Shown here: positions 8,074 to 62,963 of the stretch, piece after piece
Numbering within the stretch: the first letter of the stretch is position 1
Layout: the number at the start of each line of letters is the position of its first letter
Assembly: GCA_022821965.1 (NCBI GenBank)
Contig: JAJECN010000017.1
Span: 62,001 to 126,000 of the forward strand
Length of the DNA: 64,000 nt
Direction: 5' to 3'
DNA from: Candidatus Poribacteria bacterium
Lineage (GTDB): Bacteria > Poribacteria > WGA-4E > WGA-3G
Notes under the pieces: generated by a model
Told to the model about the DNA's origin: nothing
Seen by the model: the letters and a program-made list of their open reading frames with translations, nothing else
The model's database searches: none
Program-made: the position numbers and the translations under genes

Positions 8074-9336
8074 ATGATTACCGAACTCAGCGCGCAAAAT
8101 TTCAAATCTTGGAAGAATACAGGTAAGCTGCAAATAGCACCTTTAACCGGATTCTTCGGCGCGAACAGTTCCGGCAAAACCAGCCTGCTACAAACACTGC
8201 TCATGCTCAAGCAGACCGTAGAACGCCCGCCTAATTGGAATGGCGTGGTTGATTTTGGTGATGACAGTTCCCTCGTTAACTTGGGGAATTTTGATGACCT
8301 CATCCATGGACACAGACGAGACGATCCACTCCAAATCTCTATATCGTGGAAATTTTCCGAAAAATTAAACCTGCCGGACGTGGACGAGGTGGATACGCTC
8401 TCTTTCGATCTCAGCATCAATAATGTGGAGAATTCAGTTTCTGAGCCGAGTTTCAGTTATCAAGTAGGGGAGCAACGCTTTGGAATAGGTAGAGATAATC
8501 AAGGTATCTATCGGGTTTCCGCCCTGGGTGTACAGAATCTTAATGCAACTCTATTTCGGTGTTATGCGATTCGCAATTCATACCCTCATATTCTACAACT
8601 TTTTTCGCCACTTCAAACACATTTTGAGAACCTATTCCATAGCATCCGCTATCTCGGTCCTCTCCGTGAATATCCGCGCAGACATTATGCGTGGCAAGGT
8701 AAGCATTCGCCAGGTGTAGGACAGCACGGTGAAGATATGGTTACCGCGCTCTTTTCTGGACGGATTCAACTGCGCGCTATTGAAGAACAGATCCCCAAAT
8801 GGCTACAGCGGTTGGATTTAATCGACTCCTATCGCCTCAATCCTATCTCCAGTACAGAAAAAGATTACGAATTCCTCGTCCGGAAGTACGAAGGAGGTCC
8901 CGAAGTTCGACTCACAGATGTCGGTTTCGGTGTTTCGCAGGTACTACCGGTCCTGGTGCTCTGTTATTACGTGCCAGAGGGAAGCATCCTCATCCTTGAG
9001 CAGCCTGAAGCGCACCTCTACCCGAAAGTACAGTCGGAATTAGCCGATCTTCTCATTGAAGTCGTAAAAAATCGGCAGCTGCAAATTATCCTTGAAAGCC
9101 ACAGCGAACATCTGATTCTGCGCTTAATGCGACGCATCGCTGAGGAGCAAATTTCAGCAGACGACACCGCTTTCTACTTTTGCGAAATGAACAAAGGCGT
9201 ATCTGAAATTGAGAGGCTCAACGTTGATGACTACGGAAACATCACGAATTGGCCACAGAACTTCTTCGGGGATCAGATGGGCGACTTGGCAGCAAAGACT
9301 AAAGCAGAGATGAAACGTAAGAAAGCCAGCAAATGA
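8074..9336 (+). CDS. AAA family ATPase with C-terminal DUF3696-like domain
   Basis: A 420-aa SMC/OLD-like ATPase. The Walker A motif is GANSSGKTS at 29-37. The segment LTDVGFGVSQVLPVL replaces the usual ABC signature. Walker B is ILILEQPEAHLYPK, followed by the switch region ILESHSEHLILR. The last 40 residues (WPQNFFGDQMGDLAA) match the DUF3696 tail seen in this ATPase class. There is no TOPRIM domain, unlike OLD nucleases. Its stop overlaps the start of a PIN-domain gene (ATGATGA), so the two are translationally coupled and probably act as one module. Defence or abortive infection is the likeliest role by analogy with other ATPase-nuclease pairs; this is inference. Confidence 0.85.
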   Translation: MITELSAQNFKSWKNTGKLQIAPLTGFFGANSSGKTSLLQTLLMLKQTVERPPNWNGVVDFGDDSSLVNLGNFDDLIHGHRRDDPLQISISWKFSEKLNLPDVDEVDTLSFDLSINNVENSVSEPSFSYQVGEQRFGIGRDNQGIYRVSALGVQNLNATLFRCYAIRNSYPHILQLFSPLQTHFENLFHSIRYLGPLREYPRRHYAWQGKHSPGVGQHGEDMVTALFSGRIQLRAIEEQIPKWLQRLDLIDSYRLNPISSTEKDYEFLVRKYEGGPEVRLTDVGFGVSQVLPVLVLCYYVPEGSILILEQPEAHLYPKVQSELADLLIEVVKNRQLQIILESHSEHLILRLMRRIAEEQISADDTAFYFCEMNKGVSEIERLNVDDYGNITNWPQNFFGDQMGDLAAKTKAEMKRKKASK

Positions 9337-9839
9337 TGAAAGTTATTGTAGATACAAATGTCCCGCTGGTTGCTAATGGAAGAGCAGACCAAGCCTCTGA
9401 AGACTGCGTAGAAACCTGTATTGACATACTGATGCAGATCACTGAAGGTAACGTAAAATTAGTGTTAGATGATGATCGGCGAATTATCGAAGAATACCGG
9501 AATAAGTTGAATGCTGGAGGTTTTCCTGGTGTTGGAGACGCTTTCCTCAAATGGGCGGAGATAAATTGGGCAAACCCGCAACGATGCGACTTAGTTTCCA
9601 TTACGCCTATTGATGATTTGGAAACTGATTTTCAGGAGTTCCCAACAGACCCCGCACTAACGGATTTTGATCCGGATGATAGGAAATTTATTGCTGTTGC
9701 ACTCGCTCATTCCGAAAAACCGCCCATCCTACAAGCGGTAGATAGTGGCTGGTGGAATTACCGAGACGCGCTTCGTCAGAATGGTGTCACAGTTGATTTC
9801 ATCTGTGAAGATGATATTCATTCGATGCTAAGTGAGTAA
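9333..9839 (+). CDS. PIN-domain-like nuclease partnered with the AAA ATPase
   Basis: A 168-aa protein starting at ATG 9333, overlapping the ATPase gene by four bases. It has a PIN-fold layout: the N-terminal strand KVIVDTNV with Asp7, acidic residues in DDDRRIIEEY, the central DPDDRKFIAVALAHS, and a last acidic site in LQAVDSGWWN. PIN proteins are Mg-dependent RNases. It is longer than VapC toxins (about 130 aa) and no small antitoxin adjoins it. The ATPase may control the nuclease as in other two-gene defence systems. The substrate is unknown. Confidence 0.78.
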   Translation: MMKVIVDTNVPLVANGRADQASEDCVETCIDILMQITEGNVKLVLDDDRRIIEEYRNKLNAGGFPGVGDAFLKWAEINWANPQRCDLVSITPIDDLETDFQEFPTDPALTDFDPDDRKFIAVALAHSEKPPILQAVDSGWWNYRDALRQNGVTVDFICEDDIHSMLSE

Positions 9840-18042: not shown

Positions 18043-18978
18043 ATGCAACAGAAGATGATGCCCTTGGACATTTCTGTAAAAAATTACTTTCTAAACGAAC
18101 TCAAAAGTAAAGGTAAATTTAAATATACGCGCTACAATGGGCTACCCTTGCGTTATGCAGGTGGGAAAAGTTTGGGTGTCGGGCATATCATTGAACATAT
18201 ACCCGATGGACTTGATAAATTTATGTCCCCGTTTATAGGTGGAGGTTCTGTAGAAGTTGCTTGTGCGAAAGCACTCGGTATACAGGTTCGTGCCTATGAC
18301 ATCTTCGATATTCTTGTGAACTATTGGCAAGTACAACTTTCATCGAATCATGAACTCGCGGATAGACTTGGGACATGGCAGCCAACAAAAGAACAGTATG
18401 CAAAGATTAAAACTCGACTCAAGGCACATTGGACCGAGGAGTCCCTCATTTCAGATCCATTGGGGTTGGCTGCACACTATTGGTTTAATCATAATCTTTC
18501 CTATGGTCCCGGTTTTCTCGGTTGGATGTCCAAAATTTACGAATCTCCAGAGAGATACGTTCGTGCTGTAGACAAGGTGCGTTATTTTGAATGTCCTTTA
18601 CTCTCCGTTGAACAAGGAAGTTTTGAAGAGACAATTCCTATGCATCAAGGTGAATTTCTTTATTGTGATCCTCCTTATTATCTTGATGAAGGTAAAATGT
18701 TTCGAGGTATCTATCCACAACGAAATTTCCCCGTGCATCATAAAGGTTTCGATCATGCACTGCTACGCGACCTGCTTCATGCACACAAGGGCGGTTTTGT
18801 GCTTTCCTATAACGATTGTGCAACCATCCGGGAGTGGTACGCCGATTTTCAGGTGATTGAAGTTCGATGGCAGTACACATTGGGGCAAGGCGAAACTCGG
18901 ATCGGTAAAAACCGCATAGAGAATGGCACTGACCATGTCAAACAATCTCATGAACTTTTAATTGTGAAGGATAGATAA
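18043..18978 (+). CDS. Dam-like D12-class adenine-specific DNA methyltransferase
   Basis: A 311-aa N6-adenine methyltransferase. The SAM-binding opening is LPLRYAGGKSLG at 34-45 (FxGxK-like motif X region). The motif I equivalent is PFIGGGSVEVA at 63-73. The catalytic motif IV is CDPPYY at 208-213, which is DPPY of the D12/Dam group. The C-terminal GFVLSYND matches motif VI-like residues. AAGGTG precedes ATG 18043. No restriction endonuclease adjoins it, so it may be an orphan regulatory or protective methylase, or a phage-derived gene. The recognition sequence cannot be inferred, though Dam relatives often target GATC. Confidence 0.9.
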   Translation: MQQKMMPLDISVKNYFLNELKSKGKFKYTRYNGLPLRYAGGKSLGVGHIIEHIPDGLDKFMSPFIGGGSVEVACAKALGIQVRAYDIFDILVNYWQVQLSSNHELADRLGTWQPTKEQYAKIKTRLKAHWTEESLISDPLGLAAHYWFNHNLSYGPGFLGWMSKIYESPERYVRAVDKVRYFECPLLSVEQGSFEETIPMHQGEFLYCDPPYYLDEGKMFRGIYPQRNFPVHHKGFDHALLRDLLHAHKGGFVLSYNDCATIREWYADFQVIEVRWQYTLGQGETRIGKNRIENGTDHVKQSHELLIVKDR

Positions 18979-21156: not shown

Positions 21157-21344
21157 GTCCATTCCTCGGAGAAGATAAGGTTATTTTTTCTTCCTAAACA
21201 TGATATAAAGGTTTGCTTTAAATATCAAGATAATTTACAATATTAAACGTAGGTTGGGTTAAGCGGGATAATGAGTTGATTGACGCGCTGCATAGTGCTA
21301 CTCTTTTAGGCGTTTTAGCAGGTGTCTTAGAGGAGAGATTTAAG

Positions 21345-21656
21345 ATGGAAAATCAAGCAGTTCTTAGCAAGGAGTTTATCAAGCAGACCCTTGTAGACAA
21401 TCGAAAAACCCTGAGGAAATACGGTGTCAAACGAATTGGCTTGTTCGGATCTTACGTGCGAGGGACAGCAACCGCCGCAAGTGACATTGATTTTCTCGTT
21501 GAACTCGAAAGACTGACTTTTGACGATTACATGGGGTTGGCTGTTTTTCTGGAAGATCTATTTAAGAAGGACGTTGACCTGGTGACCCCCACATCCATCA
21601 AACCAGGTTACAAACCTTATATTGAAAAAGAGGTAGAATATGTCACGGAACTATAA
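21345..21656 (+). CDS. MntA-like minimal nucleotidyltransferase antitoxin
   Basis: A 103-aa protein from ATG 21345, with AGGAGAG eight bases upstream (longer upstream frames lack a ribosome site). It has the minimal nucleotidyltransferase motif GLFGSYVRGTATAASDIDF: GSxxRG, then DxD in SDIDFLVEL. A third acidic residue follows in KDVDLVTP. In characterised MntA-HepT systems this enzyme AMPylates and so silences the HepT HEPN RNase. The downstream hepT-like gene overlaps it by 17 bases, as is normal for this pair. Confidence 0.9.
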   Translation: MENQAVLSKEFIKQTLVDNRKTLRKYGVKRIGLFGSYVRGTATAASDIDFLVELERLTFDDYMGLAVFLEDLFKKDVDLVTPTSIKPGYKPYIEKEVEYVTEL

Positions 21657-52490: not shown

Positions 52491-52784
52491 CTATGAGAAA
52501 AACGCCTTTATCGCACCTCCGACACCGACCGCGGCGGCAATTCGGAAGAGCCAATCCATGAGCGTTTTTTGAAAAGTTGTCACCGCTTTTTTGCCAGCGA
52601 CGGCTTCCTCCACTTTTCGTAATCGATCCTCCAAAGCGTGTATGTCCGACAAAAGGCGTGCCTCTGAAGATTTTATATCTTCCCTAATCTTTTGTGTATC
52701 TGCCAAGAGACGTGCCTCTGAAGATTTTATATCTTCCCGCAGCAACTGAAACATATCCAGCGTCGTGATTTTTTCGTCGTTCAT
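52491..52784 (-). CDS. Small coiled-coil membrane protein
   Basis: A 97-aa protein. Residues about 15-62 are an amphipathic coiled coil containing two copies of an 18-residue unit (REDIKSSEARLLADTQKI, then REDIKSSEARLLSDIHAL), matched in DNA by a 28-base identity at 52657-52684 and 52711-52738. The C-terminal WLFRIAAAVGVGGAIKAFF is hydrophobic and may insert into the membrane. Its ATG overlaps the LarA-like stop by four bases, so translation is coupled. Phage-holin-associated and DUF-type proteins share this layout. Function unknown. Confidence 0.7.
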   Translation of the reverse strand: MNDEKITTLDMFQLLREDIKSSEARLLADTQKIREDIKSSEARLLSDIHALEDRLRKVEEAVAGKKAVTTFQKTLMDWLFRIAAAVGVGGAIKAFFS

Positions 52785-54337
52785 TGTGAGTCTCCAACAT
52801 TTGCATAGAAAAACGGCGGCATTGTCAAGGCAACCACATCGTCATCGCCGGAGATTTCGCGTGCCATTGCGAGCGCATCGTCTAAATTTTTCGCCCAATC
52901 AACACCCAACCGCTGCGCCACTCTCGGCTCCTTCGGACCGACAAGAATCACCTTCGCCAGATATTTCAACGGGTACGTCGCCCAATACCAGACAGTGAAC
53001 GGATGAAAACCGTGGTGTGCGAACTTGTTCCGATAACAATCAATAAGATACTCGTCCTTCGCGTATTTTTCCTGAAACTTCTGCTGCATCTCAAAGGGTT
53101 CCGTCGTTTCGGCGAGGACTTCATCGTAAAACTGCTTGTAGGCGACGTGATACTCTTCGTGGAAAATTTCGTATGTTGGGTTCATGATGATAACAACGCC
53201 GTCTTTTTTGATGATGGGTTTGTTGTAGAACCAGTTGAAGACGTAGCCTAAGATGTCGCTCACCACTAAAACGGGATTAATACGCGCATCGACAGCGTAG
53301 GGACTCATATCGGGAAGTCCGAAAACCAACGTGCTGAACTGACGCGGGATGTCTATTGCCAACTGATCCTTCATTGATTCCAACGTTCTTGCATGGACGG
53401 CATCGATATCGCCTGCGTTGATCTGTATCGGTTCATAGTCCGTCCGCACACTCTTGAGAATCGCGTAGCGCAGTGATTCGGGCAGGAGTGATAAAGTCGC
53501 CGGTGTAAAGGCTTTTATGACGCGCTCTGCCACGTTACAGTCGCTGTTTGGTTTCCCGACATAGCGAAGATGAAATGGATAGATCGCACCGTTCATTGCT
53601 GCTTCGAGTACCAAGATGGGGGTCTCTTTCTGAATGAGACGACTCATCCGCTCAATACAGGCATGCATGTGCGAACCTTCCGGCTGCATCACGTGTGGAC
53701 TTTCCGATGTCATGTGTGGTGAGTGGTGCGGTGCGATGGAGTTATACGTCCCAAGACCCACAGCGACAGATTTATGCCCACCGTTGAGTGGGATCTGTAT
53801 CGTATCCACATAAATCACCAGATCAGCTTCAAGCACGGCTTTATCTGTCTCAACGATTTCGTCTTTTTCTGTGTGCCCTACATGAACAATCTGCTCTGCG
53901 TCCTCCGCATCGAAGTTTCGGAGTTGGTGTGGATAGAACTCGTCCATAATGTTTTTGCCGAGCATATAGGCGAGTTCGTGTTCCTTCATCTTGCGGTGTA
54001 GCGCAACGGCACATATCAGTTGAATATTCTTTTTCTCCACACCGTACCCGTAGAGCATCCGTAGGAGCGTCTCAATCATAATCTGCCGCATATCCGGCTT
54101 TTTCGTGGCTGGAAAGGGTTGGCAGTTGTCGTCAAACAAAATAAGCACTTTTGCGTTGCCGTTGACGAGTTCGCGCAGCGGTGGCATCTCAAGTGGGTTT
54201 TCAAAGGCGTGTTGCGTGTGTTCGCTCAGTGCGTCGCGCTTGATTCCCGGTAGCGGAGGTTTCGCGTAGTAGACCTCAGAATTGTCCGGTAGTTTCGCGT
54301 TGATGAGATGGTTTCCAAAGTAAGTAAAATATTTCAT
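52781..54337 (-). CDS. LarA-like protein (nickel-dependent lactate racemase family, DUF2088)
   Basis: A 518-aa member of the LarA superfamily, longer than lactate racemase (about 425 aa). Family marks are AKVLILFDDNCQPFP near the cofactor site, ICAVALHRKMKEHEL (GxHR-like), and DLVIYVDTIQIPLNGGHKSVAVGLGTYNSI. Most LarA relatives act as racemases or epimerases on 2-hydroxy acids using a nickel-pincer nucleotide. The larB, larC and larE genes needed to make that cofactor are not in the window. No ribosome site precedes ATG 54337. Specificity unknown. Confidence 0.85.
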   Translation of the reverse strand: MKYFTYFGNHLINAKLPDNSEVYYAKPPLPGIKRDALSEHTQHAFENPLEMPPLRELVNGNAKVLILFDDNCQPFPATKKPDMRQIMIETLLRMLYGYGVEKKNIQLICAVALHRKMKEHELAYMLGKNIMDEFYPHQLRNFDAEDAEQIVHVGHTEKDEIVETDKAVLEADLVIYVDTIQIPLNGGHKSVAVGLGTYNSIAPHHSPHMTSESPHVMQPEGSHMHACIERMSRLIQKETPILVLEAAMNGAIYPFHLRYVGKPNSDCNVAERVIKAFTPATLSLLPESLRYAILKSVRTDYEPIQINAGDIDAVHARTLESMKDQLAIDIPRQFSTLVFGLPDMSPYAVDARINPVLVVSDILGYVFNWFYNKPIIKKDGVVIIMNPTYEIFHEEYHVAYKQFYDEVLAETTEPFEMQQKFQEKYAKDEYLIDCYRNKFAHHGFHPFTVWYWATYPLKYLAKVILVGPKEPRVAQRLGVDWAKNLDDALAMAREISGDDDVVALTMPPFFYANVGDSQ

Positions 54338-54683
54338 TTAAACCGAGTAACTCGCTTCATGATACAGTTTCAATCGTTTTGCAATCACCTATCTATTTTA
54401 GCATACTTTATGTGAATGTGCAAATTTTTTATCAGATTTAGGGAACTCATATTGTAGTTGTTATGAGCAAGTTTTGTGCCAACCTAAACTGCATCAAGAC
54501 TGATATTTTTGGCAAAAATTGCACAGAATAGGGCAAGGTTCATACTGGGTTGCACAGAATGGTGCAGTTTCGGGGCTTTCGTTGTTTGACGAGGTTTTTG
54601 GGTTATTTATTACGCTATAAGTCGTTTTGGGATTGGTTAAATTAGTTTTTACAATAAATTATTTGAATTTGTAAATTTTTGAT

Positions 54684-54712
54684 TTGACAAGAAAATATCA
54701 TACAATTATAAT
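54684..54712 (+). promoter_or_regulatory. Consensus sigma-70 promoter of the restriction-modification operon
   Basis: TTGACA (54684-54689) and TATAAT (54707-54712) are separated by exactly 17 bases, a perfect consensus match and the strongest promoter seen in the window. Transcription would start near 54719 and leave a leader of about 160 bases. Confidence 0.85.
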
Positions 54713-54728
54713 AGTCAGAACGTCACTT

Positions 54729-54819
54729 GGTTGGGAATTTCGGTTGTCACGCTTGGGGCAATTCCAACCATTACTAACCGAAAAATGCCATCACTGAAGA
54801 ATGCGAGGTTTATCTCGCA
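54729..54819 (+). promoter_or_regulatory. Structured 5' leader of the restriction-modification operon
   Basis: GGTTGGGAATT (54729-54739) can pair with AATTCCAACC (54760-54769) with one bulge. TTTCGGTT (54738-54745) can pair exactly with AACCGAAA (54776-54783). The two stems overlap at the left arm, so they are alternatives. A further hairpin TGCGAG/CTCGCA spans 54802-54819. The leader could control early endonuclease expression. Confidence 0.5.
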
Positions 54820-54878
54820 ATCCGTAAAAATGGTATCTACACAGCACCTTACAATAGGGAATTATAGGCAGACATATT

Positions 54879-55862
54879 ATGGCGGGAAATAGGTCTCTGC
54901 AAGCTGCGAATAAAGCAAAGCAGGATGAATTTTACACACAACTCCCAGACATCGAGAAAGAGCTAAAGCATTACAGGACGCATTTTCGCGGCAAGACTAT
55001 TTACTGCAATTGCGACGATCCCACCATCAGCAATTTCTTTCGCTACTTTCACCTGAATTTCGCGAAACTTGGACTCAAAAGACTGATCACAACCTGCTAC
55101 AAAAATCGGCAGACAGACCTATTTAGTAAACACGACATGGAAACCGCTGCCAGAGTTGAGTATGTCGGCAATGGAACACAACCCGCCGTATTTCAACTCA
55201 AGGAAGATGGCGATTTCAGAAGCCGCGAATGTATTGAGTTTCTTAAACAGGCAGACATTGTGGTTACAAATCCGCCATTTTCATTGTTCAGGGAGTATAT
55301 CGCGCAACTGGTCGAATACGACAAAAAATTTGTCATCATTGGGAGCATGAACGCGATAACGTACAAGGAGATATTTCCGCTTATCAGGGATGCCAAGCTT
55401 TGGCTTGGTCACGGTCCGGCTGGCAAAGATATGCTTTTTGATGTGCCAGAAGACTATGCGAGAGAATTGGTTAGAAACAAGAAGGAGGGCAGTGCCTACC
55501 GACGGGTGGATGGTGTCATCAAGGGCAGATTGGGGAACGCTGTTTGGTTTACCAATCTCGACCATAGGAAGCGGCACGAAGACCTAATCCTTTACAAGAA
55601 ATACTCTCCTGATGAATATCCGAAGTACGATAATTACGATGCTATCAACGTGAATAAAACTGCTGATATTCCAGTGGATTATGCTGGAGAAATGGGCGTC
55701 CCGATTAGTTTTTTTGACAAACATAGTCCCAATCAGTTTGAAATTATCGGTATGGATCGACCTCTCATAACCCAGCTAACAGGCAAGCAGAGTAGATTTA
55801 AAATCAAAGGCAAAGAGATTTTTGCACGCATCGTTATCCGCAACAAGAGGATACAGCAATGA
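54879..55862 (+). CDS. EcoRI-type adenine-specific DNA methyltransferase
   Basis: A 327-aa enzyme of the EcoRI methylase family. LQAANKAKQDEFYTQLPDIEKEL is the family's N-terminal pattern, IYCNCDDPTISNF the SAM-region equivalent (residues 41-53), and VVTNPPFSLF at 128-137 the catalytic motif IV (NPPF). The C-terminal target-recognition part includes GVPISFFDKHSPNQFEIIG. The stop overlaps the start of the DUF262-HNH gene by four bases. The pair is a probable restriction-modification system in which this methylase protects host DNA. The target sequence cannot be read from the protein. Confidence 0.93.
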   Translation: MAGNRSLQAANKAKQDEFYTQLPDIEKELKHYRTHFRGKTIYCNCDDPTISNFFRYFHLNFAKLGLKRLITTCYKNRQTDLFSKHDMETAARVEYVGNGTQPAVFQLKEDGDFRSRECIEFLKQADIVVTNPPFSLFREYIAQLVEYDKKFVIIGSMNAITYKEIFPLIRDAKLWLGHGPAGKDMLFDVPEDYARELVRNKKEGSAYRRVDGVIKGRLGNAVWFTNLDHRKRHEDLILYKKYSPDEYPKYDNYDAINVNKTADIPVDYAGEMGVPISFFDKHSPNQFEIIGMDRPLITQLTGKQSRFKIKGKEIFARIVIRNKRIQQ

Positions 55863-56944
55863 AAATCGAGTTGTTAGACCTCACAGTGCGAGAGCTTGTC
55901 GAGGATTACAGCGACGATGGCGAAGGCGGCGTGACCGGGTACGGCGGCAAATTGGATATACGACCACCATTTCAGCGGGAGTTTATCTACAAAGACAAGG
56001 AACGTAATGCCGTCATTGATTCCATCCTGAAAGGATTTCCATTGAACGTGATGTACTGGTCAGATCGGGAAAACGGAGAATACGAAATCATTGACGGACA
56101 GCAGCGTACAATCTCCATTGCGCAGTATGTGGATGGAGATTTTTCGTTCAATAATCAATACTTCCACAACCTCCCATCAGACAAACAAGAATTGATATTG
56201 GATTACAAGTTGATGGTCTACGTGTGTACCGGGACCGACAGCGAGAAGTTGGAGTGGTTCAAGACGATCAACATTGCGGGGAAGGAGTTGACCACCCAAG
56301 AACTGCGTAATGCTGTTTACGCCGGAACCTGGTTGTCAGATGCCAAGCGATATTTTAGTCGGAACGGTTGCGCTGCATACCAAATCGGCAATGACTATGT
56401 CAAGGGCTCGCCAATCCGACAAGACTATTTGGAGACAGTAATTAAGTGGATCAGCGGAGACTCGATTGAAGACTACATGGGGAAGCATCAGCACGACGAA
56501 AACGCGTTACCCCTATGGGAGTATTTTCAATCGGTGATCGATTGGGTTGAATCCACTTTCACGAACACAAGACCAAAAATGATGAGGAGCGTAGATTGGG
56601 GTTCGCTGCACAACGACTTTGGAGATGCCGACCTTGACGCTGATGAGATTGAGCAGGAAACTGCCCGCCTTCTATTTGACGATGATGTCCAACGGAAGCC
56701 GGGGATATACCCGTACATTCTGACTCGCGAGGAGAAGCACCTGAACATACGCGCCTTTTCAGACAGCATGAAGCAAAAGGTCTACGAAAAACAGTCCGGC
56801 TTTTGTGTTATCTGTGATGATAAATTCACAATCAAAGAGATGGAAGCAGACCATATCACACCCTGGTCCGAGGGCGGCAAGACCAACGAGGATAATTGCC
56901 AGATGCTTTGTAAAAAGTGTAACAGGGAAAAGTCCGCACGATAA
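55859..56944 (+). CDS. DUF262-HNH endonuclease partner of the methyltransferase
   Basis: A 361-aa protein with an N-terminal DUF262 domain: IRPPFQREFIYKD at 35-47 and EIIDGQQRTISIAQY with DGQQR at 79-83, the nucleotide-handling motif of GmrSD-like and DNA-sulfur-linked systems. A C-terminal HNH nuclease at 316-361 has zinc Cys pairs CVIC and CKKC around ADHITPWSEGG with catalytic His332, and Asn residues further on. ATGA overlaps the methylase stop. It is the predicted restriction component. DUF262 domains often couple nucleotide binding to cleavage of modified DNA, so the methylated state could be either protected or targeted. Confidence 0.9.
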   Translation: MKIELLDLTVRELVEDYSDDGEGGVTGYGGKLDIRPPFQREFIYKDKERNAVIDSILKGFPLNVMYWSDRENGEYEIIDGQQRTISIAQYVDGDFSFNNQYFHNLPSDKQELILDYKLMVYVCTGTDSEKLEWFKTINIAGKELTTQELRNAVYAGTWLSDAKRYFSRNGCAAYQIGNDYVKGSPIRQDYLETVIKWISGDSIEDYMGKHQHDENALPLWEYFQSVIDWVESTFTNTRPKMMRSVDWGSLHNDFGDADLDADEIEQETARLLFDDDVQRKPGIYPYILTREEKHLNIRAFSDSMKQKVYEKQSGFCVICDDKFTIKEMEADHITPWSEGGKTNEDNCQMLCKKCNREKSAR

Positions 56945-57049
56945 TCAGAAATAGGATTGCAATGCTCGCCCATATAGGTCGTATAGACACCATGTCCTAC
57001 ACCAGTCATGCGTAGAAACTGTGTTCTTGTTGGCGTAGTCCTTTAAGGC

Positions 57050-57385
57050 TTATTCTTTCTCGTGGATATCTACTTTAACTTCAAGCCATGAATCCCACCC
57101 GTAACTTGTAGCCACCTCTAAAACAACGTCCTTTGTCCTATTAATCCATTTATCGACGAGTCTTTTATCAACAGCAGCAGAATGGCTGACGACTACGCAG
57201 ATACTCTTTCCATCATTTCCAGTTGTAAAATAGAGGCGGAATGGATGTTCAATTTGAAAGCGAGCATTCAACAGAACTAAGAGCCAATCCAAGCGGGTTG
57301 GTGTATATCTTTCCAATCCTGGGGCATTCTCTAACATTACTATTCTCCCTTGCTTACTATAATCCAAGTTGCCACCTGATACCAA
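57050..57385 (-). CDS. Hypothetical protein in the defence island
   Basis: A 111-aa protein with no recognised family. It contains a hydrophobic strand-helix pattern (RLDWLLVLLNARFQIEHPF, YFTTGNDGKSICVVVSHSA) and a charged C-terminus (VKVDIHEKE), and looks like a small soluble alpha/beta protein. It is flanked by the DUF262-HNH gene, which converges on it, and by the OLD/PARIS-like gene upstream on the same strand 190 bases away. Its position suggests a defence role, but nothing in the sequence shows one. No clear ribosome site. Confidence 0.55.
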   Translation of the reverse strand: MVSGGNLDYSKQGRIVMLENAPGLERYTPTRLDWLLVLLNARFQIEHPFRLYFTTGNDGKSICVVVSHSAAVDKRLVDKWINRTKDVVLEVATSYGWDSWLEVKVDIHEKE

Positions 57386-57575
57386 ATACGCAGAAATTGC
57401 AGGTTCAGGACACCGTAGAATATCAAAATTCGGGAAAATTCCTTGTATTTTGAGTTAAAAACGGTGTTTTTACGCCTAAAATTTTGTAAGTAGCAACTTT
57501 GGTTATTATATCACAATCTTGGTTTAGAAAGTGGCCCGAATTTCCGATGGCAGTACAACATAAATTACCAATGAG

Positions 57576-59162
57576 TCACTCGCCGAAGATGTCTTCGTGT
57601 AGTTCCTCATAAATAGCCATATCAGGTTGAATGCACGGGGCAAGCATGTTCTTCATAAAACTCCTGCTTTTATTCCCAATTTTACGCGGTCGCATAGCAT
57701 TTCTGATAAAAATATGAATTGTTTGAGCAGTATCTTTCAGATCATCAGGAGCTTTACCGTTCGCTACACTTGTTGTGAGAGCATCTCGTTTCGCATCAAG
57801 TAACTCTTGAATCTTATCAGGTATGTTGTGATTTATGCAAAACTTAGTTAGCACTTCGTCATCAAGAAGATAACTTTCAATGTTTCGGAGCGACAAAGTG
57901 CGGATCCTTTCTTTAGCATTCTCTTCAATTTCTTGATCGTCTGCCTCATCTCTGTCTCGGAGTCTAAGGACTTTTGCTCCCCCTATAATTGCCTCAATAA
58001 CGGGGATCAGATATGTGTTAGCCCTTTCTATATCTTCGCAATTACCAATAGAGACAAACCGCGTGTCAGGGTAATGAATCCTAAAAATTGCATTATAGCA
58101 GTCAGCATCAAAATTTGTGCCCTCGCAAAGAATGATCCGCTCGGGTGCTATCAATTTAGCAAGATCACCAAGAGCAATCTCATAGGTTCGTGCCCAGAAA
58201 TTTGGATTGGGCAGAGTAGGTGCGATTGTCGCTTCGTCATCAAAATCGAGATCTTCTCCACCGAAGTCAAGGAATACCACTGAATTTGGATTTTTGCGCC
58301 AGAGGTCTTGTGCCTTGCGGACCATACCTACAGAGTGTGTAGCAATCCAAATTTGAGAATTTTCAGGTATAAGTTTGTAAAGCTGTTCAAGAAGTGGTCC
58401 CTGAAGCTTTGTATGTATATGTGCTTCCGGCTCGTCAAGGCAGAACACTGTATCGTTGAATTCTGACTTGGCAACTATTATGTCCAGAATCAAATCTAAG
58501 GCTGCTTTTTCTCCACTGGATAGATTTAGGTACGAAAATCCATGACTTGTCCCTTTGTTAAATTGAAAAACCTTGTCCCTTGTCAAAGAACCTAAACTGG
58601 TAAGAACCAATTCTGGATCCCTAAATAATACTGAGATTGCGTCTCTTAATTCCCCAAAAATTTCATCTTGAAGGTCACCAATATTTTCTTCGCGTCGACC
58701 TGTTGCTGAACTACGTTCTATCCATTGGTTTAATATTCGACCAAAGTTTAGGGCAACAGCTTGATCGTTGTCCGCCAATAGACTAAATCTGTATTCCGAT
58801 ACTATTGAATTGGTTCGGGTGGCATAACTGCCCACATCTTCTACTAAATCGTTCCTATAGGAGGTACGTATATGTATGCTTCTGTCCCAGTCTTCATCGG
58901 CTTGTGGGTATTCTGTATGGAACTCTACCTGAATTATGGCTTCAGACTGCCCAGATGAGTCAATTTTGTTAAAATAAGAATCACCTGCAATAGATGGACG
59001 ACCTTTTGAATTTTTATACTGGTGTAAGGCATCAAATACGGAGGACTTTCCACTCCCATTTGGACCTATCATCACTACGAGACGTGCTGCCTCAGGTATA
59101 TCTTTTATTGTTAGATTTTTGAAGCGTCTAAAATCTTTCAGACCAATCGATTTTATTTTCAT
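57576..59162 (-). CDS. OLD/PARIS-like ATPase fused to a TOPRIM nuclease domain
   Basis: A 528-aa single-chain defence protein. The ABC-type ATPase has Walker A MIGPNGSGKSS (31-41), signature LNLSSGEKAAL (212-221), Walker B FCLDEPEAH (240-248) and switch ATHSVGM (274-280). After it comes a TOPRIM-like domain: ILCEGTN with Glu347, LRDRDEADD with Asp403 and Asp405, and RNIESYLLDDEVL (426-438), the last typical of DUF4435/AriB-type nucleases. PARIS uses an AriA ATPase and AriB nuclease as separate or fused proteins that sense phage anti-restriction proteins, and OLD nucleases have the same order. It is next to a restriction system, which suits that role. Class assignment is by motif only. Confidence 0.85.
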   Translation of the reverse strand: MKIKSIGLKDFRRFKNLTIKDIPEAARLVVMIGPNGSGKSSVFDALHQYKNSKGRPSIAGDSYFNKIDSSGQSEAIIQVEFHTEYPQADEDWDRSIHIRTSYRNDLVEDVGSYATRTNSIVSEYRFSLLADNDQAVALNFGRILNQWIERSSATGRREENIGDLQDEIFGELRDAISVLFRDPELVLTSLGSLTRDKVFQFNKGTSHGFSYLNLSSGEKAALDLILDIIVAKSEFNDTVFCLDEPEAHIHTKLQGPLLEQLYKLIPENSQIWIATHSVGMVRKAQDLWRKNPNSVVFLDFGGEDLDFDDEATIAPTLPNPNFWARTYEIALGDLAKLIAPERIILCEGTNFDADCYNAIFRIHYPDTRFVSIGNCEDIERANTYLIPVIEAIIGGAKVLRLRDRDEADDQEIEENAKERIRTLSLRNIESYLLDDEVLTKFCINHNIPDKIQELLDAKRDALTTSVANGKAPDDLKDTAQTIHIFIRNAMRPRKIGNKSRSFMKNMLAPCIQPDMAIYEELHEDIFGE

Positions 59163-59326
59163 ATATTACATTCCTGTATTTCGACTCAAAAGATTGGATC
59201 AACATGTAGGCATGTCTTGAACTTCATTCAGTGATCGGATGGACAGAATACTTTCACATCAATGCTAAAGCTGCCCTATGTGATTGGATATAGATGTGTT
59301 CATCAAGAAGTGGGATAGCAACACGT

Positions 59327-60772
59327 TCAAGAATCGGTGCTTTCTCGATTACCAGACAAGCCCAAGGAGCGTTTCTGTTGAAGTTTAGGGCACTTATCCG
59401 CTATGGCTTGAATCTGTTCCGCACTGAAGCCCATTAGATTGAGAAAATGGAGCTCAAATAGCAACTCCATTTTTAGACAGAGAATATATAAATCCTCCCC
59501 TTTAGCAGCATCCGATTCTGAATCTGAATCAGGGTGTGTCAGATGATTTCTCGTATCCACAATAAGTTTTATGAGTAGAGATTTTTCCTCTTCGCCAAAA
59601 AAGTTGTTAAATGCCTCAACCATTCTTCGAATCCGGTCTCTTAATGTCAATTCATTAGCATAATTTAATCTTGCTCCGAACCAATTCCTATCCTTCTTAG
59701 GGAATTCCTTAATAACCCTTCGCCTTATCGTTTTAAACTCATCGTCTGCCATATACTTATCATCACAACTCTCCCGATGGTATGCTTCTAAACCCTGTGC
59801 TAGACTTAGAAATCTTACTTCCAAAGATGGTTGTGGTCTTAATTGTGCCTGAAAGTATAGATTAAAAGCGTGTTCATACTGCTCATAACTCTCAATCCAT
59901 TTATTAATCATTCTCTCGGCACCGTCCTGTATGTCCGAGAATCCAAACAACATCTGATTCCGATCAATCTTAGGCTGATCTTTAGAGTAGTAAAATACAC
60001 TTGGATCATAAATATTGATCTCAGCCAGCGGAGTTATACCAGCCGCAATATTTTGGCGTATCTCCTCTGAAGTTGCTGACATACTATCCAAAGAAACTGT
60101 TTGATTTATGGTAAAACAGAACAAATCAACAATTTTATGCGCGATAGAAAGAAACTGTTTTAACTCCTGAGCATCCTCTGAAATCAATCTGAAATATACC
60201 TTTTGAGTTATTCCTGCCTCCCTAGGACCTAGAGTATCTGGGCGTCCTGCGATGAAAACAATTTCCAACTGCATATCGTCGGCAAGATTAAATGAAATAG
60301 TTTCTGGTAGTTTGTATGATATGGTTGTGGTACCTACTACCTGTCTGTACCGAGCGTTAATAGTGCTAATACCGCTTATCCCAACCCAATCGTCAATTCC
60401 TTCTATAGAAAATTTGAAAGTAGTAAAAAGGGGAATCTCGTTTTGAGGTCGCGGAAAACCAGTAAAAACCTGATTTGCCCAGATTGTTTGGGATGTTTGT
60501 ATTTGCCCAAAATTAAAATTAAATCCACCTGTTGGAGTTTGACAACCATCAAGTATCACAAATCCATATTCTTGAATATGTCCAATTACTCGGTAAAAAT
60601 TATCAAAATTATTCAATAGGGCTGCTATACTTGCCGGATCATTTACAAAGGATCGAGCGACTTCCAGTTCAATCCCCCGTTCATTTGATATTGAGAGTAT
60701 TCCTGGCACAGGTTCAGGGGATTGGGGAATCCAAAAGGTCCCAGACTTCTTGATCTCTTCCTTAATTTTCAC
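59327..60772 (-). CDS. ApeA-like HEPN domain anti-phage protein
   Basis: A 481-aa protein. The N-terminal 200 residues or so are a beta-rich domain of the ApeA N-terminal type (SGTFWIPQSPEPVPGILSIS, GFVILDGCQTP). The C-terminal part is helical with LSLAQGLEAYHRESC at 322-336, the family landmark, and ends in a HEPN RNase motif R408-NHLT-H413 (R-x4-H) in VDTRNHLTHPD. ApeA proteins are single-gene abortive-infection systems. It lies 164 bases upstream of the OLD/PARIS-like gene on the same strand, so cotranscription is possible. Confidence 0.82.
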   Translation of the reverse strand: MKIKEEIKKSGTFWIPQSPEPVPGILSISNERGIELEVARSFVNDPASIAALLNNFDNFYRVIGHIQEYGFVILDGCQTPTGGFNFNFGQIQTSQTIWANQVFTGFPRPQNEIPLFTTFKFSIEGIDDWVGISGISTINARYRQVVGTTTISYKLPETISFNLADDMQLEIVFIAGRPDTLGPREAGITQKVYFRLISEDAQELKQFLSIAHKIVDLFCFTINQTVSLDSMSATSEEIRQNIAAGITPLAEINIYDPSVFYYSKDQPKIDRNQMLFGFSDIQDGAERMINKWIESYEQYEHAFNLYFQAQLRPQPSLEVRFLSLAQGLEAYHRESCDDKYMADDEFKTIRRRVIKEFPKKDRNWFGARLNYANELTLRDRIRRMVEAFNNFFGEEEKSLLIKLIVDTRNHLTHPDSDSESDAAKGEDLYILCLKMELLFELHFLNLMGFSAEQIQAIADKCPKLQQKRSLGLSGNRESTDS

Positions 60773-60986: not shown

Positions 60987-62963
60987 TCAGCCGGGCAGTA
61001 GACGATACCCAATGCCAGTCATCAGTCCAACGATGATCCAGATCCCGCCGATGAAACACTCACCTAACACAACCCCTAAAACAAGCGGGCGAAGTTTGCG
61101 ATATTGAGCAACACCACCAAACTTCAGGACGGTGTATTTGAGAAGCCAACCGATGAAGAATGAACCCCAAAAGCAGTAGGTTGCATAACTCGTCATCAGT
61201 AGTGAGCCGATGGGGTGCAGTTTCCACCAGAGATAGTGGTGCCGCATCCAGAGCATCCCGAACATCGTGGCACCCCCGAAGATGAACGAACCGATTCGTT
61301 CCAATTCAATACCGGTCGGGTTTTGGAGAATACTTGTGAGGCGATTGAATGGGCTGGTTGTGGAGATCATGTAGGTCCAGTGTTGTAGATTCACCGCGCC
61401 GTGTGTGTAGGCGAGGTCTAAAGAGGAATAGTAGGAGACTCCCATTGCCAAGACGATTGCAATGCCCATGGCGAGTAGAAACGGACGTTGTCTCAGACGC
61501 AACGGTTCCGCGAGTTTGAAGTTGTTCATCACGCCCGGCATCAGGATTTCCCGCATGTCGAACATCAAGACCCGTTCATAAGCGACCAGAGTCCAGCTTG
61601 AGGCGTTCACGCGGGAACTGCCGAACAACGTAATCAGGAATTCGCCGGGCAGGAAGGAGTAGATGATGAACAGCAAACCGCCATTCGCGACCATCCACGT
61701 CCCGACCGTCGTTATGCCGAGGAAAATTCCGAGCATCACGAGTGCCACCCATATACTCATACCCGCCATACTACATATCAGAGTAAGCAATAGGGTGCCG
61801 ATGATTAAACCACCTACTGCCCAAATGTAAGGGAGAGGTTCGTTGGTATCACCCCTTGCCTGTTTTCCAAAAAGGGTCGCGAATGCCCTCCCGAAATGAC
61901 GTTTGCCGATAAAGAGAATGAATCCGATAAAGACGAGCAGCGCACCCATCTGTTGATTTTGGTGGAAGGTCCACTGATTCACTTTTGAACCTGTTGCATA
62001 GATAAGCACTGTCTCCATCTTTCCGAGCATGAAAAAGAACCAAAAGCTAAACGAAATTTCGAGGGTGAGCAGATAGACAATGGCGATAATCGAAGGATAG
62101 ATAAACAGATGCACGGTCGGCCACCACCCCAAAGCGGACAGCGGTTTTTCCGTGAAGTATCGGGCAATCGCAAAATCGAGAGGCGGGTTCGGGATGGCTG
62201 GGAAGTAGAGGTGCAATCCTTTCAAGCCGTGCAGTACCACAGGGATCGCAAAACCGCACCACATCAACGGCGATTTGAAGAACCTATTCAGCAGCGCGCC
62301 CCCGGACGGAGATTGAAACATCTCCTGCGGCAGTTGAACGATTGGGAAAGTGAAGCGTTCGTGTTCTATCCACTGCTTTCGGAGGAGGACTGTCCAGCAG
62401 ATCGTAACGAAATAGAAGATTAGGACAAACGCGCTCCAGCCGACAATCGGCTTCAGCCATGCCCGCCACGGGATCGAATCACCGTCTGGTAGTTTTTCAT
62501 AGAAATAAAAAACGGCTTTCGGGTCTTTCACGACCATCCAATCTGGAAGGTGCTGATGAAAAAGGGTAACCCATTCGTTTTCCGGGGTCGCGAAATAGTG
62601 TGGGCTGACAGCGAGTGGAACGAGGTATCGCATCAATCCTGAAGAGGGGATGCCCGATGCAACCAACATCATGCCCCAGATGATGAGAAGTTCCCCACCT
62701 TGCAATTCTGTGCCGGGTTTCAATCGCTTGAGGAGCACATTGACACTGACGACGAAAACCAGCATGACGAAGACAATAGCGATGGGCAGATGATTTCCTG
62801 CGAGGTAAGTGCCGCCGACGTGGAAATCGTTGTAAGGCGTGACGAGGCATTGGCATATCACTGCGCCCATGCCGATAAGGACACTCCGCGCCGTGAGTCC
62901 AGTGTGAGCAGGATGGGTAGTTTGAAGCGGATTCTGAGAGTGAGACGCGGCAGGAGGTGTCAT
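60987..62963 (-). CDS. Large polytopic membrane protein of the DUF6785/DUF6784 type
   Basis: A 658-aa protein with a dozen or more hydrophobic segments and two halves. The opening (LTARSVLIGMGAVICQCLVTPYNDFHVGGTYLAG, about 24-57) and IEHERFTFPIVQLPQEMF near 207 fit the DUF6785 family of planctomycete-type bacteria, related in layout to oligopeptide transporters. The final helix WIIVGLMTGIGYRLLPG is typical. No function is known. It is isolated: no partner genes lie on the same strand within 200 bases. Confidence 0.85.
   Translation of the reverse strand: MTPPAASHSQNPLQTTHPAHTGLTARSVLIGMGAVICQCLVTPYNDFHVGGTYLAGNHLPIAIVFVMLVFVVSVNVLLKRLKPGTELQGGELLIIWGMMLVASGIPSSGLMRYLVPLAVSPHYFATPENEWVTLFHQHLPDWMVVKDPKAVFYFYEKLPDGDSIPWRAWLKPIVGWSAFVLIFYFVTICWTVLLRKQWIEHERFTFPIVQLPQEMFQSPSGGALLNRFFKSPLMWCGFAIPVVLHGLKGLHLYFPAIPNPPLDFAIARYFTEKPLSALGWWPTVHLFIYPSIIAIVYLLTLEISFSFWFFFMLGKMETVLIYATGSKVNQWTFHQNQQMGALLVFIGFILFIGKRHFGRAFATLFGKQARGDTNEPLPYIWAVGGLIIGTLLLTLICSMAGMSIWVALVMLGIFLGITTVGTWMVANGGLLFIIYSFLPGEFLITLFGSSRVNASSWTLVAYERVLMFDMREILMPGVMNNFKLAEPLRLRQRPFLLAMGIAIVLAMGVSYYSSLDLAYTHGAVNLQHWTYMISTTSPFNRLTSILQNPTGIELERIGSFIFGGATMFGMLWMRHHYLWWKLHPIGSLLMTSYATYCFWGSFFIGWLLKYTVLKFGGVAQYRKLRPLVLGVVLGECFIGGIWIIVGLMTGIGYRLLPG

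Follow-up and report, generated by a model that had tools for sequence, protein, structure and literature searches.

The combination of restriction with a back-up effector is an already known theme: OLD/TOPRIM and HEPN proteins have been described as suicidal effectors that back up BREX-type systems (PMC12839542), and HEPN proteins, ApeA among those named, were reported in 2013 to be embedded in restriction-modification (R-M) operons (PMC3710099). PARIS joins an OLD-type ABC ATPase (AriA) to a TOPRIM protein (AriB), including as a fused AriAB; the thresholds set for it are AAA_15 or AAA_21 above 32/27 bits and DUF4435 (AriB) above 27 bits (PMC9122126), and AriB is a tRNA nuclease (PMC12409363). 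Class 1 OLD nucleases carry ATPase and TOPRIM in a single chain, and GmrSD, BrxU and SspE have in common a DUF262 NTPase domain with a DGQQR motif.

We analyzed a window of 64,000 nucleotides from a Candidatus Poribacteria genome, in which four intact open reading frames at 54879-60772 encode a DNA methyltransferase (MT), a nuclease (RE), an ATPase-TOPRIM protein and an ApeA-type HEPN protein. The four-gene cluster described in the initial annotation is real, with family matches far above chance, and the genes on both sides are as ordinary as it held them to be: LarA and cobalamin-independent methionine-synthase homologues on the left and a DUF6785/DUF6784 membrane protein gene on the right. 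Its start coordinate, 54684, falls exactly on the start of a perfect TTGACA-N17-TATAAT promoter. MT and RE lie on the plus strand, and the ATPase-TOPRIM and ApeA-type genes lie on the minus strand, convergent with MT-RE and sharing no operon with them. At a probability of roughly 0.65, we interpret the locus as a composite island built stepwise at a variable chromosomal slot, with R-M as a first layer and a TOPRIM/HEPN growth-arrest back-up as a second. Its features are:

52781-54337, minus strand: LarA (lactate-racemase) homologue, left anchor of the slot
54604-56949, plus strand: MT-RE mobile cassette (promoter, leader, MT, RE), about 2.35 kb, 89% DNA identity to the Poribacteria locus L005/L197
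54684-54712, plus strand: MT promoter, consensus sigma-70, 12/12, TTGACA-N17-TATAAT
54879-55862, plus strand: EcoRI-type adenine-N6 DNA methyltransferase (MT), 327 aa, PF13651
55859-56944, plus strand: GmrSD_N(DUF262)-HNH nuclease (RE), 361 aa, predicted cognate restriction enzyme
57502-57557, no strand assigned: repeat remnant between the island halves, probable insertion-sequence end
57576-59162, minus strand: AriAB/OLD-like ABC ATPase-TOPRIM protein, 528 aa
59327-60772, minus strand: ApeA-type HEPN protein, 481 aa
60883-60911, minus strand: promoter-like site upstream of the ApeA-like gene, TTGACT-17-TATAAT, 11/12, TG-extended
60987-62963, minus strand: DUF6785/DUF6784 membrane protein gene, right anchor of the slot

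The MT promoter recurs in L005 with identical spacing (11/12, the single mismatch being TTGAAA). A structured regulatory leader ahead of MT was considered and rejected, as its fold z-score of -1.2 resembles that of shuffled sequences; an Rfam search of 50-64 kb gave no match, and no tRNA that might account for integration was found in the window. GC content is 0.44-0.48 in MT-RE, 0.39-0.41 in the other island genes and 0.49-0.52 in the flanks, differences that fit separate origins for the parts of the island.

The methyltransferase and the DUF262-HNH nuclease form a true pair, as the initial annotation had proposed. MT matches PF13651 (EcoRI_methylase) at E 3.4e-126, and its catalytic motif NPPF (residues 131-134) is invariant in the alignment; no solved structure related to it by sequence was found. 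The start of RE overlaps the end of MT by 4 bases, and this overlap recurs among relatives. Among 80 RE relatives drawn from many phyla, MT lies at most 400 bp upstream of RE in 67. Of the 76 assessable loci (those not cut by a contig end), 73 have MT no further than about 1 kb upstream, and in the remaining loci it is just downstream (n=1), far away (n=1) or absent (n=1). The closest RE matches are in Candidatus Poribacteria MAGs, and RE relatives in other phyla, including on plasmids, are 60-69% identical; plasmid records annotate MT and RE as neighbors, with the same order and overlap as in the window. Cassette copies L006, L007, L009 and L195 end at 56949, L010/L196 at 56950 and L008 at 56944, the RE stop itself. 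Because seven distinct copies end no more than 6 bases from the RE stop codon, and because host flank homology to the closest relatives (G001/G008) breaks off at 54611, we regard MT-RE as a discrete mobile cassette. We found no experimentally characterized cassette of an EcoRI-type methyltransferase with a DUF262 protein in the literature searched. GAATTC is not avoided in the window (24 observed versus 26 expected), a count that says nothing about the specificity of the cassette. Across the whole window, TTCGAA is rare (1 observed versus 15.9 expected) and CATATG is absent (7.6 expected).

RE matches GmrSD_N (E 4e-21) and HNH PF01844 (E 2e-14), with no Pfam match to the DUF1524 GmrD nuclease domain, and aligns full length to the PADLOC Type II REase model (REase_II; E 1.5e-129, 430 bits). 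Its DGQQR motif (residues 79-83) and HNH residues D331/H332/N346/N355 are invariant in the alignment. In a structure model with pLDDT 88, the DUF262 part (residues 3-144) matches the BrxU fold (Z 9.0, 3.3 A) and the C-terminus matches the HNH nuclease/nickase 4h9d (Z 8.1). By analogy to GmrSD (PMC4619093), RE likely uses NTP. Although the DUF262 NTPase domain is common to RE, GmrSD, BrxU and SspE, RE differs from these in its PF01844-type HNH in place of DUF1524, its shorter length and its methyltransferase partner. That shared domain with its DGQQR motif, together with best folds (BrxU and SspE) that both belong to modification-dependent enzymes, would fit a Type IV, modification-dependent mode of action for RE, in which case the methyltransferase would serve some other role. 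We consider this very improbable given the near-invariant pairing of RE with an EcoRI-type methyltransferase, the PF01844 rather than DUF1524 nuclease domain and the full-length match to a Type II model.

The interval between LarA and DUF6785 is a variable defence-gene slot of the hotspot kind, which agrees with the view of the locus as a defence island: in relatives, the same position holds other defence genes or nearly nothing. Both anchors are present in 17 relatives, where the interval spans 152-7808 bp; the slot is near-empty in several and measures 1094 bp in the two nearest relatives. Its contents elsewhere include N6/N4 methyltransferases with Mrr-like ends, an IS605 TnpB, three PADLOC PDC-S35 TIR-type genes and a DitA homologue, a name linked to Aditi, so that we take this slot gene to be Aditi-like. 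The proteins matching the PDC-S35 TIR models are three in tandem at L154:5500-8255 (plus strand). Outside the island, the window also contains an overlapping ATPase (DUF3696, PADLOC HEC-03B, 389 bits) and small partner (HEC-03A, 119 bits) at 8074-9839 (plus strand) that form a candidate defence pair, a D12-class adenine methyltransferase at 18043-18978 (plus strand; PADLOC Type II model, 386 bits) and a nucleotidyltransferase-domain protein at 21276-21656 (plus strand; PADLOC PDC-S09) that is possibly half of a toxin-antitoxin pair.

An open reading frame at 57050-57385 had been counted as an uncharacterized member of the cluster, an assignment that we do not retain. The frame is present, its TTG start is doubtful and an in-frame ATG begins at 57337. 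We rejected it as a defence gene: it has no family match, 22 of 60 genomes contain relatives and every one of these belongs to the genus, and in G035 an 84%-identical relative is separated from LarA by about 600 bp, in a slot where no defence genes were recognized as far as the contig extends. Most probably, the frame is either an earlier occupant of the slot or one that arrived independently. Between this frame and the ATPase gene lies the 56-base repeat at 57502-57557, which has over a dozen other copies in the genome, several at contig ends, and is probably insertion-sequence debris.

The ATPase-TOPRIM protein matches AAA_15/AAA_21 at about 1e-19 (71.2 and 71.7 bits), above the ATPase threshold for PARIS, and its best PADLOC match is AriAB (110 bits). 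It carries Walker A (GPNGSGKSS) and CLDEPE motifs and TOPRIM residues E347, D403 and D405, of which the first two are invariant and the third nearly invariant in 11 homologues. The structure model is of moderate confidence (mean pLDDT 62, the C-terminal part being better): its N-terminal part is similar to the heads of SMC/Rad50 and AriA, and its C-terminal part (340-528) best matches AriB 8ux9_A (Z 11.1, 4.3 A, 172 residues) in an alignment that starts at 340=19 and, if ungapped, puts E347 at AriB E26. The description of this protein as OLD/PARIS-like therefore stands for its fold and catalytic residues, but not for the Pfam family, as DUF4435 has no match at E up to 10 (a second copy in the same genome reaches 22 bits). 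Because this match is missing, we call the protein AriAB-like and do not file it as PARIS, from which its linkage to methyltransferases in its phylum also sets it apart. It resembles Class 1 OLD nucleases in its similar-size single-chain architecture and in having relatives that stand alone in proviruses, and differs from them in a C-terminal fold nearest AriB and in near-constant R-M linkage in Poribacteria. No GajB helicase of Gabija adjoins it, its island neighbors being MT, RE, ApeA and the 57050-57385 frame. In a phylogenetic tree, it falls in a set of 13 (support 99/97), mainly with Eco57I-linked members. Because relatives encoded in proviruses and on a Zymomonas plasmid lack a neighboring methyltransferase, the protein can probably act alone.

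The ApeA-type protein matches ApeA_NTD1 (E 6e-43), HEPN_Apea (E 6e-33) and PADLOC PDC-S58 (239 bits), and its ribonuclease motif R408-x4-H413, of the R-x4-6-H form, is invariant in 11 relatives; no solved structure related by sequence was found. Both domains and the R-x4-H motif are common to known ApeA, from which the window gene differs by adjoining an ATPase-TOPRIM gene. Across the Poribacteria phylum, a Type ISP R-M gene is the neighbor in 10 of 14 ApeA relatives; elsewhere the neighbor is an N6/N4 methyltransferase, a Type III Res gene or an Hma-type DUF499 gene, and in one case a methyltransferase lies a few kb off. Pairs of ApeA and Type ISP R-M genes (L175, L177-L179, L218, L219, L221) lie beside a gene of 640-650 aa that looks like a second DUF6785 paralogue, and a DUF6785 gene also neighbors ApeA in the window.

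We compared the ATPase-TOPRIM gene to 24 other loci in the phylum, 22 of them assessable. A methyltransferase is its upstream partner in 15 of the 22, comprising 6 Eco57I-type enzymes directly upstream, 8 Mod-like enzymes whose frames overlap it by 4 bases and 1 single-ORF fusion (L182:6871-10548, minus strand), a 1225-aa Mod-like N6_N4 methyltransferase and AriAB-like ATPase-TOPRIM found in one assembly only. In 4 further loci a methyltransferase lies within two genes, and the others have an HSDR_N gene beside it (1) or neither (2). L166, L167 and L168 hold a conserved run of an Eco57I-type methyltransferase, an AriAB-like gene, a membrane protein, an HD-domain protein and a protein of about 195 aa. 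Overall, a methyltransferase is nearby in 19 of 22 ATPase-TOPRIM loci and ApeA adjoins R-M genes in 13 of 14, counts that are not independent trials because of the common ancestry of the relatives and the abundance of methyltransferases in the host (24 PF01555 matches). These comparisons bear out the suggested link of the OLD/PARIS-like family to restriction and show that both this family and the ApeA-like one are strongly tied to R-M genes in the phylum, so that chance alone is an unlikely reason for their position near an R-M pair here. They do not extend to the four genes as one co-inherited unit, as MT-RE moves alone and other Poribacteria copies of it lack both effectors. A single four-gene system was likewise rejected, since no other locus among those examined combines ATPase-TOPRIM with ApeA.

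In a two-layered island, the EcoRI-type methyltransferase would mark self DNA, and DNA left unmarked would be cut by the co-translated DUF262-HNH protein, a putative NTPase-nuclease of GmrSD fold. The AriAB-like ATPase-TOPRIM nuclease and the ApeA-type HEPN ribonuclease are likely growth-arrest effectors that would fire once a phage defeats or bypasses restriction, presumably through RNA or tRNA cleavage and perhaps upon sensing anti-restriction proteins. We model these activities, targets and trigger on PARIS (PMC9122126, PMC12409363), GmrSD and the HEPN families. As in the BREX-related systems (PMC12839542), OLD-TOPRIM and HEPN proteins would accompany a modification-based first layer, although in this island a small Type II-like cassette takes the place of BREX. 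The R-M linkage of both effector families supports this arrangement. It is weakened by the convergent orientation of the effectors to MT-RE, by MT-RE copies elsewhere in Poribacteria that lack them, by ATPase-TOPRIM relatives with no adjacent methyltransferase and by the non-independence of the linkage counts.

Alternatively, a Type II R-M pair, a Class 1 OLD-like protein and a solitary ApeA could be three unrelated stand-alone systems that only happen to occupy one integration hotspot and are not functionally linked. Consistent with this reading are the independent movement of MT-RE, the ATPase-TOPRIM relatives in proviruses and on a plasmid that have no methyltransferase next to them, the differing base composition, the insertion-sequence debris separating the island halves and a gene combination unique among the loci examined. 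We consider it somewhat unlikely, since both effector families are R-M-linked at nearly every assessable locus in the phylum, often with overlapping frames and once within a single ORF. The 4-base overlaps with Mod-like genes in 8 loci and the L182 fusion could instead indicate that the ATPase-TOPRIM protein serves a modification system as its nuclease and not as a guard, standing in, among relatives, for a Res subunit that the Mod-like methyltransferase lacks; the window copy, whose clade is otherwise mainly Eco57I-linked, would have lost its own methyltransferase partner or would use the EcoRI-type one. This is unlikely given that relatives with no methyltransferase exist, that AriB, whose fold the C-terminal part resembles, is a tRNA nuclease (PMC12409363), and that the Eco57I-type partners match Type IIG models. 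Type IIG enzymes carry their own cleavage activity. It is about equally improbable that Poribacteria AriAB-like proteins and their Mod-like or Eco57I-type methyltransferases form two-part immune systems in which the ATPase-TOPRIM protein monitors or executes modification-dependent restriction, with the window copy re-coupled to a mobile EcoRI-type cassette.

As a proposed composite of restriction and back-up effectors, the island is a natural, compact test case for TOPRIM/OLD and HEPN effectors backing up restriction systems. The systematic and sometimes fused pairing of methyltransferases with AriAB-like proteins in relatives is possibly the new part. Within one phylum, these effector families are found repeatedly next to at least four kinds of R-M genes, in one case as a single-ORF methyltransferase-ATPase-TOPRIM fusion. 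The EcoRI-methyltransferase/DUF262-HNH cassette is widespread and uncharacterized in the literature searched, and the locus defines a defence-gene exchange site in sponge symbionts.
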